Part shown: positions 13,883-37,394 of the stretch, piece after piece
How positions within the stretch are numbered: position 1 is the first letter of the stretch
How the letters are laid out: the number at the start of each line of letters is the position of its first letter
DNA from: an uncultured bacterium
GTDB taxonomy: Bacteria > Spirochaetota > Leptospiria > Turneriellales > Turneriellaceae
Assembly (NCBI GenBank): GCA_938038265.1
Contig: CALHRC010000034.1
Location: 1-40,428, forward strand
Reading direction: 5' to 3'
Length of the DNA: 40,428 nucleotides
Notes under the pieces: model-generated
What the model was told of the DNA's origin: nothing
The model's input: only the letters and a program-made list of their open reading frames with translations
Database searches by the model: none
Translations under genes and position numbers: made by a program

Positions 13883-14314
13883 TCATTTCTCTATATGCTC
13901 CAATTGATCTAGTGAGACGAAACGCCGGTAATAACAGCTCTGGCGGTGGTGCCCCTCGCGGTCTAAAGTATGGCAAGAACGGCCAGTCAACATCCTAACC
14001 AAAAACAACAGAGAATTCTGCTCACAATTAACCCGCGCTTCGACAAGTTCTAACGTATCACCACTGGTATGTCCCTTAACCCACAAAGTATTCCTGCTGG
14101 TGGAATAAAAGGCAACCCGCCGCTGCTCTAAAGTGTAGTGCAAGGCTTCACGATTCACATAAGCCAAAGTTAACACTTCTTTAGAGTCAACATCCTGCAC
14201 CACCACAGGCAATACCTCAACGCCGCCAGCGACTACCTTCTGCAATTTGCCCCAATCCAGCTTGAGAGAGCCCCCTTCTTCTAAATTCAGAATTTCTTCA
14301 GTACTGTGAATCAC
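13883..14314 (-). CDS. hisI: Phosphoribosyl-AMP cyclohydrolase-like protein (HisI)
   Basis: HisI opens the purine ring of phosphoribosyl-AMP in histidine synthesis. This 143-residue protein matches the family along its length: VVQDVDSKEVLTLAYVNREAL, FYSTSRNTLWVKGHTSGDTLELVEARVN split over residues 69-96, then a CHT motif and a late Cys. The zinc cysteines are present (Cys97, Cys114, Cys127). The usual magnesium triad DxDxD is replaced by Asn96-Cys-Glu98-Gln-Asn100, so two acidic ligands are lost and one is lengthened. I think some bacterial homologues share this NCEQN form, so it may be a natural subfamily rather than a dead copy. No other his gene is in the window. It reads away from the large intergenic region at 14315-14807. 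Confidence 0.85.
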   Translation of the reverse strand: MIHSTEEILNLEEGGSLKLDWGKLQKVVAGGVEVLPVVVQDVDSKEVLTLAYVNREALHYTLEQRRVAFYSTSRNTLWVKGHTSGDTLELVEARVNCEQNSLLFLVRMLTGRSCHTLDREGHHRQSCYYRRFVSLDQLEHIEK

Positions 14315-14470
14315 AATACTAACTTACTAAGGCTTGTCAAATTGACCACTAGAAATTGCCAATTCAAGCAAAGCTATAGCCATAAAGGGAGCTTAACCCA
14401 CCCCTTCGCTGCAACCCGGCTCTACTGTATTTAAGACGCCGGGATAGGGAATTCCTTAACTAAAAAACCT
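14315..14470. other. Intergenic region with hairpin, divergent hisI / envelope operon
   Basis: This is the first third of a 493-base gap between the hisI start (minus) and the small lipoprotein gene (plus). It holds a perfect 6-bp hairpin, CCCGGC (14415-14420) with GCCGGG (14438-14443), and a GGGAATTCC (14447-14455) that recurs in variant form three times in the next 80 bases. No ORF with a ribosome site is visible. Promoters for hisI should lie here but I see no convincing pair. Confidence 0.4.
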
Positions 14471-14531
14471 GTTCAGGAATTCCGGAACTAGTGATGTGGA
14501 TTTCCATACCGGATGGGGAATTCCCCATCCG
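14471..14531 (+). repeat. Interspersed repeat block alpha, copy 1
   Basis: This block begins with a short hairpin-like unit, GTTCAG-GAATTC-CGGAAC (14471-14488, one mismatch). It continues through GTGGATTT and ends in a perfect 22-base palindrome at 14510-14531 centred on GGGGAATTCCCC. A second copy is at 33257-33315. Over the core (14496-14525 against 33280-33309) 28 of 30 bases match without gaps. It lies directly before block beta. I do not recognise it as a known repeat family. Confidence 0.75.
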
Positions 14532-14555
14532 TACCGTCATGCCTGACCTAAAGAA

Positions 14556-14667
14556 AAGCCGGGCAGTGGCAGGGTTGAGCGGCTTAGCGAAAACCGGTGG
14601 CCTGAAAGGTTAGCCGCCACACGGTGTCCCCTAAAAGGGGGCATGCCTTGGGGGCGCGGTGGCCCCC
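14556..14667 (+). ncRNA. Candidate structured RNA element beta, copy 1
   Basis: Four hairpins follow in order. I: AAGCCG (14556-14561) with CGGCTT (14580-14585), 18-base loop containing GGCAGG. Linker: CGAAAACC at 14588-14595. II: GTGGC (14597-14601) with GCCAC (14616-14620), extended by CCG/CGG around a bulged A. III: TGTCCCCT (14625-14632) with AGGGGGCA (14636-14643). IV: GGGGGC (14650-14655) with GCCCCC (14662-14667), 6-base loop. The copy at 34503-34623 keeps the same order, loop sizes and linker, with compensating changes in hairpin I. Pairing is assigned by eye. It could be a small RNA, a mobile structured repeat or a leader of the downstream operon. Confidence 0.6.
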
Positions 14668-14671
14668 GTAC

Positions 14672-14697
14672 TTATTGCAAAATTTTGCCTGCAATAA
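14672..14697 (+). terminator. AT-rich hairpin after element beta
   Basis: TTATTGCA (14672-14679) pairs perfectly with TGCAATAA (14690-14697) over a 10-base loop. It lies directly after hairpin IV of element beta and about 110 bases before the next ORF. It would suit the 3' end of a small RNA, though the run of T residues is short. The equivalent place after copy 2 also has a short inverted repeat (CAACA/TGTTG, 34629-34648). Confidence 0.4.
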
Positions 14698-14807: not shown

Positions 14808-15194
14808 ATGAGTAATGGAAAAAAAATAGTTATGTTAGGTTGGCCCCTGTTGCTTTTTATTCTGGCAGCATGTGGCAGCAGTGAGGTGCGCTCTGATATT
14901 CCCATTCGTGTACCGGATAGCATCAACTTGAAAATGGCCCAGAAGGAAGTTAACGAGGCACAGGAGGAGTTAGAGCGCGAGAAACTGGAAAAACTGGCTG
15001 ATTATGCTCCCCAGGAATTTGTCAAAGCAGAGCAGTTTATTAAAGACGCCCGTACCCAACTAAATGATGAAAACGAAGAACCGGCTTACTATAGTGCGGC
15101 CAAAGGCCGGGCTTACTTACGTTTAGCCCGTTCTAAGAAAGAGCTGGAAATTGCCCGTAACCAGCAAAAATCGCTGGAAGAAGAACTGAAATAG
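14808..15194 (+). CDS. Small helical lipoprotein (DUF4398-type)
   Basis: This 128-residue protein has a clear lipoprotein signal with the lipobox ILAAC (about residues 18-22). The mature part is almost wholly helical and charged. It carries the motif YAPQEFVKAEQFIKDA (about 64-79), which matches the repeat motif of the LysM protein at 9481-11016 and is typical of DUF4398. GAGAGG stands 6 bases before the ATG. The next gene starts 9 bases after the stop, and citrate synthase follows that, so the three are probably co-transcribed. It is likely a small envelope lipoprotein working with the product of the next gene; the specific role is unknown. Confidence 0.85.
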   Translation: MSNGKKIVMLGWPLLLFILAACGSSEVRSDIPIRVPDSINLKMAQKEVNEAQEELEREKLEKLADYAPQEFVKAEQFIKDARTQLNDENEEPAYYSAAKGRAYLRLARSKKELEIARNQQKSLEEELK

Positions 15195-34312: not shown

Positions 34313-34502
34313 ACTTCCAGTCGAAGTTGTCTGAACATACTGTCAACCATAAGCCATGTAGCATATTCTGGGCGCATGCGCTTAAGTTACGCCGGAGACA
34401 AAACGAAAATGCGTAGTAGTTTGATTTTGGGGCGGCGGGATGAAGGGTCGAGGGCATGGGCGCAAATTATATGAGACGACCAAGCCCGGGGGGAGCCTAA
34501 AA
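34313..34502. other. Intergenic region upstream of the hadA-like gene
   Basis: This is the first half of the 337-base gap between the hadA-like start and the sucA stop, both on the minus strand. It contains a 10-base palindrome, GCGCATGCGC (34372-34381), and a TTGACA on the minus strand at 34341-34346. No gene is visible. The remainder of the gap is element beta copy 2. Confidence 0.4.
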
Positions 34503-34623
34503 TGCCAAGCGTGGCGGCAGGTTTGGGTGCTTGGCACGAAAACCGGTGGCTTAAGCCAGCCGCCACGCGTTGTCCCCTATGGGGACATGGCAGTTGAGGC
34601 GCGGGGGGCGGTTGAGCGCCCCC
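34503..34623 (+). ncRNA. Candidate structured RNA element beta, copy 2
   Basis: Hairpin I is TGCCAAGC (34503-34510) with GCTTGGCA (34529-34536) over an 18-base loop containing GGCAGG. The linker CGAAAACC (34537-34544) continues into GTGGC (34546-34550), which pairs with GCCAC (34562-34566) as hairpin II. Hairpin III is TGTCCCC (34571-34577) with GGGGACA (34581-34587). Hairpin IV is GGGGGCG (34604-34610) with CGCCCCC (34617-34623), 6-base loop. Copy 1 at 14556-14667 has the same order and loop sizes but different hairpin I stem bases. On the minus strand the element sits just after sucA; the conserved single strands read on the plus strand in both copies. Confidence 0.6.
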
Positions 34624-34649
34624 GTATCCAACAAAAAGTTTAGCTGTTG

Positions 34650-37394
34650 TCAGGCCAACGCACGGCGCACTAAGTCTGCTTGTTCAAGTGCATGAACTTT
34701 GGTAAGGCCGGCAGCCGGGCTGGGGCTGGTTTTACGCGCAATACAGACCAGGGGAAACTTGACCGCCTTTTGGGTTTTCTCCCAACGTTCTTTCATAAAA
34801 AACCAGGCGCCCATATTGCGCGGTTCTTCTTGTACCCAATAGACTTCTTTAAGTTTTGGATATTGGGCCACAGCCTCATCGATAAGATCATAACGTAACG
34901 GGTACAGTTGTTCAATGCGGTGGATGGCGATGTTGTAATTTTCACCTTCTTCACGGGCGCGAATTAGGTCATAATAGATTTTCCCGGAGCAGAAGATAAG
35001 GCGGGTGATGTTGCGTTCTTTGGCTGTTTCATCCCCCAAAATATCTTGGAATCTGCCTTTTTCAAGTTCATGAACATAGGAAACCGCTTCAGGCAAACGC
35101 AGCAGACTCTTGGGTGTCATCACAACTAAAGGCTTGCGTACTTTGCGCAGGGCATGGCGGCGCAGCATGTGAAAATACTGGGCTGGGCTTGTCGGATAAC
35201 AGACAATCATATTTTTTTTGGCACAGAGCTGTAGAAAACGCTCTAAGCGGGCAGAGGAATGCTCCGGCCCCTGGCCTTCATAACCATGCGGGAGCAGCAT
35301 AATGAGACCTGAGAGGCGATTCCATTTTACCTCAGAGCTTGAAAGAAACTGGTCGATCACAATTTGTGCGCCGTTGGCAAAATCGCCGAACTGTGCTTCC
35401 CAGATAACCATGTCGCGCGGCGCAGAAAGAGAATAACCATATTCAAAACCCAGCACTGCGTATTCAGAAAGAGGCGAATTGATAATACGCACCCAACCCT
35501 GATCGGGGCTTAGATGAGCGAGGGGACAGTATTTTTCGCCTGTTTGGTAATCAACCAGTACTGCATGACGATGGGAAAAAGTTCCCCGCTCAGCATCCTG
35601 CCCGGAAAAACGGATATTGTATTTCTGCTTTAGCAAAGTGCCAAAAGCCAGCGCTTCGGCCAAAGCCCAGTCGATGGCTTGGTTTTCTTCAATTGCCTTG
35701 CGGCGGTTTTCCAAAAGTTTCACCAGTTTGGGGTGCGGCGAAAATGTATCGGGCAGAGTTGTGATACCGTAAGCTGTCTGAAGCAATTCATCACGGGAGA
35801 CGCCGGTTTCGGGTTCTGTTTTGTCAAAATCACGCGAGAAGCCTTCCCAGATGCCCTGCATGGTATCTACGGTGATCTGTACATTTTTTTCACTGGTTTC
35901 GCGGTATGATGCTTCAAGTGCATCCATGATTTTAGTTTGGATGGCATCTAACTCGCTTTTCGCAATACCGGCCTGTTCTGTTAGAAATTTGCCATAAAGA
36001 GTCACAGTAGTGGGATGTTTCTTAATTATTTCATACATCGTCGGCTGGGTAAACGCTGGCTCATCAGTTTCATTGTGACCCAAACGGCGGTAGCAAATTA
36101 AATCAATGATAACATCCTTCTTGAATTTATGGCGGTACTCCATGGCAAGCTTGATTACACGCATAGCCGCTTCAGGGTCATCGGCATTGACATGAAAAAT
36201 GGGAATCTGAAAGCCTTTCGCCAAGTCGGTGGCGTAAAGTGTAGAGCGTGATTCGTTAGGCAGTGTGGTAAATCCTACCTGGTTATTGATCACAATGTGG
36301 AGGGAGCCGCCGGTAGTAAATCCTTCGAGATACATTAGATTCAGTGTTTCGGCGACCACACCTTGGCCAGTAAAGGCGGCGTCGCCGTGGATTAAAATAC
36401 CCATGAACTTCTCGCGTTTATGATCGCCGTAATAGTTTTGTCTCGCTCGCACTGAACCTAACGCCACAGGGTTTACTGCTTCAAGGTGGCTGGGATTGAA
36501 CATAAGCGACAGCTTTACGTTTTTACCCGATCTCGTGTTGATAATGCTGGAATAACCGAGGTGGTATTTGACATCCGCATTATCGAACGTAACCGCGTCA
36601 GCTTTCTCTTCAAATTCAGCAAAGATTAGGGAGGATGGTTTGCGCATAATATTTTGCAGTACATTGAGGCGCCCTCGGTGGGCCATCCCAATGACAATAC
36701 CTTCCATATTTTGCGCACCGGCATCTTCGATAACCCAATCGAGTAGGGGAATCATGGTCTCGCCACCTTCGAGAGAGAACCGTTTTTTCCCGACATATTT
36801 TTTAGCGAGGAAACGCTCAAAATATTCTGCTGCGAATAATTTTTCATAGATCCGCAACCGCTCTTCGCGGGTGAATTCATACTGGAAACTGCCGGTCTCA
36901 ATGCGATCCTGCAACCACAGGCGTTCGGTATCATCAACAAGGTAATAGTGTTCGCTGCCAATGGTGCCACAATAGATGCGCTCAAACCAGGCGACCACAT
37001 CGCGCAGCTTGGCAATCCCCAAACCAGGCACATTGGTGTCAAATTCAGAATCAAGATCGCTTTCGGAAAGGTGGCGCAGACGATCGTCGATCATCTCTCG
37101 GTTAGGCTTGCTGATACCCAGAGGATCCAGGTTTGCCGCTCGATGCCCCAGACGGCGGTAAGTGTTGAGCAGGTTCTGCACACCCATTTCTTTGAGCAGG
37201 GAAATATCGTCCGCAGCTGCCATTGCTGCCGCAGCTGGTTGGGCGACTGTTGCGTTTAACGTACGGTGGTTTTCCAGAGCACGGAAAAAATCTCCCCATT
37301 CATGGCCGACAGAGTTGTTACTTTGCCGGTATTTCTCGTACATTTCTTCTAAGTAGGCGGCCTGGTCGCCGGTGAGCATGCTGTTGTTGTTCAT
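34650..37394 (-). CDS. sucA: 2-Oxoglutarate dehydrogenase E1 component
   Basis: SucA is the thiamine-diphosphate decarboxylase of the 2-oxoglutarate dehydrogenase complex, a TCA step. The 914-residue protein opens with the E1-type segment QAAYLEEMYEKYRQSNNSVGHEWGDFF. Key motifs are VIGMAHRGRLNVLQNIM, SSIINTRSGKNVKLSLMFNPSHLEAVNPV, HGDAAFTGQGVVAETLNL (cofactor), INNQVGFTT, and in the C-terminal half FGDFANGAQIVIDQFLSSSEVKW and LLPHGYEGQGPEHSSARLERFL. It starts at the ATG 37394 with GAGG upstream. The E2 (sucB) and E3 genes are not in the window. The short insert after residue 48 (VAQPAAAAMAAADD) is low-complexity. It is divergent from the ABC1-kinase gene. Confidence 0.96.
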   Translation of the reverse strand: MNNNSMLTGDQAAYLEEMYEKYRQSNNSVGHEWGDFFRALENHRTLNATVAQPAAAAMAAADDISLLKEMGVQNLLNTYRRLGHRAANLDPLGISKPNREMIDDRLRHLSESDLDSEFDTNVPGLGIAKLRDVVAWFERIYCGTIGSEHYYLVDDTERLWLQDRIETGSFQYEFTREERLRIYEKLFAAEYFERFLAKKYVGKKRFSLEGGETMIPLLDWVIEDAGAQNMEGIVIGMAHRGRLNVLQNIMRKPSSLIFAEFEEKADAVTFDNADVKYHLGYSSIINTRSGKNVKLSLMFNPSHLEAVNPVALGSVRARQNYYGDHKREKFMGILIHGDAAFTGQGVVAETLNLMYLEGFTTGGSLHIVINNQVGFTTLPNESRSTLYATDLAKGFQIPIFHVNADDPEAAMRVIKLAMEYRHKFKKDVIIDLICYRRLGHNETDEPAFTQPTMYEIIKKHPTTVTLYGKFLTEQAGIAKSELDAIQTKIMDALEASYRETSEKNVQITVDTMQGIWEGFSRDFDKTEPETGVSRDELLQTAYGITTLPDTFSPHPKLVKLLENRRKAIEENQAIDWALAEALAFGTLLKQKYNIRFSGQDAERGTFSHRHAVLVDYQTGEKYCPLAHLSPDQGWVRIINSPLSEYAVLGFEYGYSLSAPRDMVIWEAQFGDFANGAQIVIDQFLSSSEVKWNRLSGLIMLLPHGYEGQGPEHSSARLERFLQLCAKKNMIVCYPTSPAQYFHMLRRHALRKVRKPLVVMTPKSLLRLPEAVSYVHELEKGRFQDILGDETAKERNITRLIFCSGKIYYDLIRAREEGENYNIAIHRIEQLYPLRYDLIDEAVAQYPKLKEVYWVQEEPRNMGAWFFMKERWEKTQKAVKFPLVCIARKTSPSPAAGLTKVHALEQADLVRRALA

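Follow-up and report, generated by a model that had tools for sequence, protein, structure and literature searches.

Dispersed structured repeats are known from bacteria, among them bcr1 of Bacillus cereus and BOX of Streptococcus pneumoniae. Both repeats are named in PMC2267715. The REP elements are GTAG- and CGTC-tagged palindromes (PMC3733652), and in the spirochaetes, the ilvB and sucC-II motifs of Leptospira are structured RNA candidates (PMC8632094). The DNA analyzed here, referred to as the window, comprises an entire contig (40,428 nucleotides) of the spirochaete draft genome G000 (2.61 Mb, 83% complete), whose relatives served to infer its phylum and order. The initial annotation had placed two homologous copies of a candidate structured RNA in it, at 14556-14667 and 34503-34623. 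The homology was borne out, the similarity far exceeding chance, and both copies lie on the + strand, with limits moved outward to about 14550-14668 and 34487-34624. The two copies are not those of a single RNA gene, as had been assumed, and belong to a high-copy dispersed repeat.

The blastn query 14540-14680, which covers copy 1, was searched against this genome and 40 relatives and returned 20 places in this genome and no match in the relatives. Fifteen copies were aligned by sequence only (alignment A2), and the structure was set by hand after viewing the alignment. A covariance model, R1, was used to find more copies, and 36 matches were aligned to the model (alignment A3). The model search, which the initial annotation had proposed, yielded additional copies both in this genome and in related spirochaetes, with a few in related genera. 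With the covariance model R2, this genome has 44 matches at E ≤ 0.001, including near-identical duplicates and truncated copies, several of them at contig ends. The copies are short, non-coding, dispersed at unrelated intergenic sites, and conserved in fold, as is characteristic of dispersed structured repeats.

The intergenic regions of G000 also abound in perfect palindromes with GGAATTCC at their centre; two kinds occur, GTTCAGGAATTCCTGAAC and GATGGGGAATTCCCCATC-like. These were seen at 14440-14540 of the window and in the flanks of L032, L036, L040, and L043-L058, often paired and flanking the element on both sides, with outer bases that vary while the palindrome is kept. A second intergenic repeat near TTTTTAGTAACTAACA ... 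TTATGTCCCAT was found close to copies of the element (flanks of L033, L045, L051, L052, L056, L057, and L060). At L051, a truncated subfamily 1 copy (1501-1566, - strand) and a diverged subfamily 2-like copy (1684-1801, + strand) are oppositely oriented and separated by about 120 bp.

The consensus fold, read by hand from A2, is P1{P2{P3,P4},P5}+P6, in which P1 encloses P2 and P5, P2 encloses P3 and P4, and P6 lies 3' of P1. P1 and P3 both contain GA-type internal loops (GCC-GA-AAAC/GGTT-GA-GGC and GGTTT-GA-GCG/GC-GA-AAACC, respectively). Copy 2 of the window (34487-34624, + strand) is an intact member of subfamily 1, the best match to R1 in the genome (146.9 bits, E 3.0e-25), and well preserved, with a fold z of -5.0 versus shuffles. 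All its parts read on the + strand. It starts with the conserved 5' tract CGGGGGGAGC (34487-34496, from A2), followed by the 5' strand of P1 with its GA-type internal loop (34495-34507), which pairs with the 3' strand at 34588-34600 according to structure and pair counts. The strands of P2 (34509-34518 and 34559-34568) were defined by pair counts, and the hairpins P3 (34520-34544, tandem-GA-type loop, GGTTT-GG-GTGC..GCAC-GA-AAACC), P4 (34547-34558), and P5 (34571-34587) by A2 and pair counts. The terminator-like hairpin P6 (34602-34624), assigned from sequence, pair counts, and fold, forms the 3' end, with a T-rich 3' flank in the family; this end is 25 nt from the stop of the opposite-strand gene sucA (34650-37394, - strand).

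Copy 1 (14550-14668, + strand), the one listed in the initial annotation, is a decayed member of subfamily 1 (R1 62.3 bits, E 8.9e-9). Its 5' G-tract and most of P1 are gone, and it folds no better than shuffles (z -1.05). On the + strand, it retains P3 (GGGTTGAGCG..GCGAAAACC, 14572-14595), P4 (14598-14612), and P5 (14625-14643), all from A2, and the G-tract/C-tract hairpin P6 with a 6-base loop at the 3' end (14650-14667, from sequence and fold). It sits between divergent genes, a hisI-like gene with a PRA-CH domain on the left (13883-14314, - strand) and a small lipoprotein-like gene (14808-15194, + strand).

The fold first drawn for the two copies was partly wrong. Of its four common hairpins, the GTGTCCCC hairpin and the GGGGGC hairpin, its hairpin IV with a 6-base loop, are present, and hairpin I is not conserved. 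The base changes in hairpin I had been read as compensating; in other copies, the AAGCCG/CGGCTT columns pair at only 1 to 3 of 6 positions (fewer where gapped), and the TGCCAAGC/GCTTGGCA columns pair at 2 to 5 of 8 positions in most copies and at 6 or 7 in three. Hairpin I was therefore rejected as a conserved helix, the same bases belonging to P1, P2, and P3 in the family. The 14-mer CGAAAACCGGTGGC is identical in both copies, as reported, and is not a single-stranded joiner, since the consensus fold assigns it to the 3' strand of P3 and the start of P4.

The broader claim of selection on base pairing was upheld by covariation well above background. In A2, 93.4% of cells pair, compared to about 35-45% in slid versions, and double-sided change was seen in 18 of 50 pairs (8.7 in shuffles, none of 500 reaching the observed value), including 5 of the 10 pairs of P2. 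In A3, 40 of 50 pairs showed double-sided change, again reached by none of 500 shuffles, with a covariation score of 0.371 versus 0.112 in shuffles, although A3 leans towards the model because it was fitted to it. Base pairing is maintained by selection while the sequence changes. The paired columns hold 48 G-U against 16 A-C combinations, which favours the + strand as drawn as the folded strand; folding of that strand fits these data, and folding of single-stranded DNA is also compatible with them.

Beyond this genome, R1 found a single copy in G002 and another in G006; both have the same small gene on one side, and the one in G002 has glnA on the other. Their P1 and P2 sequences are quite different, with pairing retained. 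A second syntenic pair was found in the relatives (L064/L097), and some copies are syntenic between sister species (G002 and G006, and likewise G370 and G376). Such copies have therefore been retained for long times, which may reflect function rather than spread. One related record that holds a homologous copy bears the title 'Turneriella parva isolate SulCav'. R2 additionally matched G013, G014, and G016 from other families of the order, in which the common part is the outer frame only and the inner part is genome-specific. In four G013 copies (L108, L113, L115, and L118), an extra block of about 51 nt, which contains the hairpins GCCGC...GCGGC and GTCCATCCATGGAC, lies at one and the same site, with the 5' G-tract/TAG on one side and GCG on the other. 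The matches L065 and L068 to the P3 pattern were discarded as chance.

The outer frame reads GGGGG-N-AGC-(GA-type internal loop)-stem ... stem-AGCGA-GGGGG-loop-CCCCC, and on its 3' side, AGC(G/C) precedes the G-tract/C-tract hairpin, which has T-rich sequence behind it. A scan of 393 genomes for the 3' pattern AGCGAGGGGG-N(1-20)-CCCCC gave 21 matches in G000, 19 in G013, and 78 in G363. One large family contains many genomes with roughly 5 to 17 matches each. Some counts are inflated because shifted matches within C runs were counted. The reversed-pattern control gave 0 to 1 matches per strand per genome, and single matches in some genomes are probably due to chance. The 5' partner GGGGG-N-AGC was present at a distance of 50-205 nt in most multi-copy genomes inspected, often with a further hairpin, GCGGGG...CCCCGC-AGA, before it. 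Across Spirochaetota, the frame recurs many times per genome, enclosing inner hairpins that are entirely different. When 5' and 3' arms were exchanged among 46 thinned, dissimilar elements, the mean folding energy was -15.8 kcal/mol for native and -8.9 for swapped arms, and none of 2000 permutations was as good, which shows that the inner part is self-complementary in each of the 46 elements. The proposed link of the detailed Leptospirales-type fold to the simple hairpins elsewhere rests on the frame that they share, and subfamily 2 of G000 (GGGGGTAGC...AGCGAGGGGG) is the bridge between the two. Among the longer inner hairpins, those of L198, L212, and L216 (G363), L078-L091 (G013), and L169-L171 contain similar loops of the form TGCAGGGACAAAGA / GACAGGATGGAGGAC / GGAGGGGACGGA, which may be a second conserved site.

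Copies of subfamily 1 often end close to a convergent gene, 2-49 nt from its stop codon. The 14 nt 3' of the hairpin have a T fraction of 0.49 versus 0.30 (P = 2e-9), so that a G/C-rich hairpin is followed by a T-rich tract, as in intrinsic terminators, with T-tracts that are interrupted and weak in several copies. The explanation that we prefer, with about an even chance of being right, is a widespread Spirochaetota mobile-like, non-autonomous structured repeat, similar in kind to bcr1, BOX, and REP, whose folded transcript ends in a putative terminator. The element would be a non-coding intergenic unit of 50-205 nt, with a constant outer frame and inner hairpin(s) varying by genome, that spread as a non-autonomous mobile repeat. 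Where transcribed, its top strand would fold, and the 3' hairpin would then separate transcription units as an intrinsic terminator or insulator.

The same structural data could be explained by multi-copy genes for trans-acting small RNAs, that is, independent transcripts that end at the 3' hairpin and bind a protein or ligand through the GA-loop motif. The strong and long-lasting structural conservation, the conserved loop motifs of P3 and P1, the terminator-like 3' end, and the retention of orthologous G002/G006 copies with compensating changes are consistent with such genes. However, a simple sigma70 scan upstream of the copies found no promoter enrichment over mononucleotide shuffles and so lent no support to independent small RNA promoters. 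The dozens of diverged and truncated copies in one genome resemble a repeat rather than a gene family, and the inner hairpins are unrelated between genomes. We regard small RNA genes as unlikely.

Evidence on mobility came from prophage-like and CRISPR-associated copies. Five contigs of a viral collection carry the element (L148, L149, L152, L154, and L156, of which L152 and L156 overlap), and those with gene lists resemble small prophages, their genes having been read as including integrase, terminase, portal, and capsid. In two prophage-like contigs, the element lies upstream of other genes (AAA_13 and DUF3800), and further related phage contigs hold variant copies. L148, L149, and L154 together with about 80 related contigs (L225-L303) make up a family of small prophage-like contigs with integrase, terminase, portal, and capsid, and in several contigs of this type, the element is at the start of the variable gene region. 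The remaining matches of the viral scan, L150, L151, L155, L157, and L158 (one repeated GC-rich sequence) and L153, have no frame and are, like L159, apparent chance matches. In G376, a copy (L204 2812-2910) lies inside a CRISPR-Cas operon, on the same strand, between cas3 and cas4. The prophage copies and the cas3-cas4 copy suggest that the element spreads by horizontal or mobile routes; its presence is patchy across genomes.

A DNA-level element, in which a fold of single-stranded DNA rather than RNA is needed for transposition or recombination of the REP/IS200 or attC type, would account for a dispersed short sequence with G/C-tract ends, whose hairpins single-stranded DNA could form, and for the prophages, in which the homology between relatives is frequently lost at, or close to, the element's 3' end. 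Against it, Y1_Tnp (PF01797) was absent in G000, G002, G013, and G014, and the reverse transcriptase domain RVT_1 (PF00078) in G000, G002, and G013, where G000 and G013 are incomplete assemblies (83% and 80% complete). On these absences from the main carriers, incomplete assemblies among them, REP/RAYT and retron models, or any other reverse transcriptase-borne origin, were considered unlikely. An integron attC site was rejected on the right arm, which varies (GGTTGA, GGCTGG, and GGCCGA) against the core GTTRRRY, and gene-cassette arrays on the dispersal of the copies among core genes. The carrier genomes, G370, and the phage comparisons revealed neither a mobilising enzyme nor an empty site or target duplication: the phage contigs gave no clean empty site, and for the cas3-cas4 copy, the sole match in G370 was a different copy of the element, the region that flanks the cas3-cas4 copy being absent there. 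We give the DNA-level reading a low probability, on a par with small RNA genes. The preferred structured repeat can be extended to a phylum-wide class of mobile RNA elements with a fixed frame, an exchangeable inner hairpin, and an unknown mobilising enzyme, residing in spirochaete chromosomes and prophages, and this extension is offered tentatively, as possible rather than probable.

A cis-regulatory, riboswitch-like leader, in which the 5' or 3' G-tract would pair alternatively with the 3' C-tract, is very improbable: all 11 clear subfamily 2 copies in G000 (near-duplicates L053 and L055 included) lie 126-229 nt upstream of a same-strand gene, and in other genomes some copies end 37-105 nt before a start codon, a few directly before the RBS/ATG, but the neighbouring genes when compared showed no common function, many subfamily 1 copies, including copy 2 of the window, face a convergent gene, and 5' G-run and 3' C-run lengths are uncorrelated (rho 0.03, P = 0.77), on which the tract-pairing switch was rejected, so that the element is probably not a riboswitch.

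The comparison with Rfam, also proposed in the initial annotation, matched no family: no Rfam 15 family reached its gathering score in the window, and below that threshold nothing worth following appeared for the window copy, for five other copies, or for the phylum-wide elements. A search of the open-access literature, with most subscription papers outside it, gave no description of the element. The family appears to be undescribed; in kind, it resembles bcr1, BOX, and REP repeats. With dozens of spirochaete genomes carrying the frame, in up to tens of copies each, it makes up a sizeable unannotated share of the intergenic DNA of the phylum. It is unusual for inner stems to change freely, yet always remain self-complementary, within a frame that stays constant, and the element makes it possible to ask directly what spreads or maintains these repeats in bacteria without a REP transposase and whether they set transcription unit boundaries.

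Compared to described systems, the element shares with bcr1 and BOX a short, non-coding, intergenic, folded form and many copies per genome, whereas sequence, fold, and phylum differ, and its constant outer frame spans a whole phylum with inner hairpins changing between genomes. Like REP elements, it is intergenic, palindromic, and dispersed, and many of its 5' ends read GGGGGTAGC, so that GTAG is present by sequence; in contrast, REPs are single palindromes of 20-40 bp associated with RAYT (Y1) transposases, and the element is multi-hairpin, with carriers (G000, G002, G013, and G014) without Y1_Tnp. Intrinsic terminators resemble its 3' G/C hairpin with the T-rich sequence behind it, near the ends of transcription units, but match only the last 20-25 nt, the remaining fold being conserved independently. 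The ilvB and sucC-II motifs are likewise structured RNA candidates of the same phylum; they are single-locus leaders before one gene, whereas the element is dispersed.
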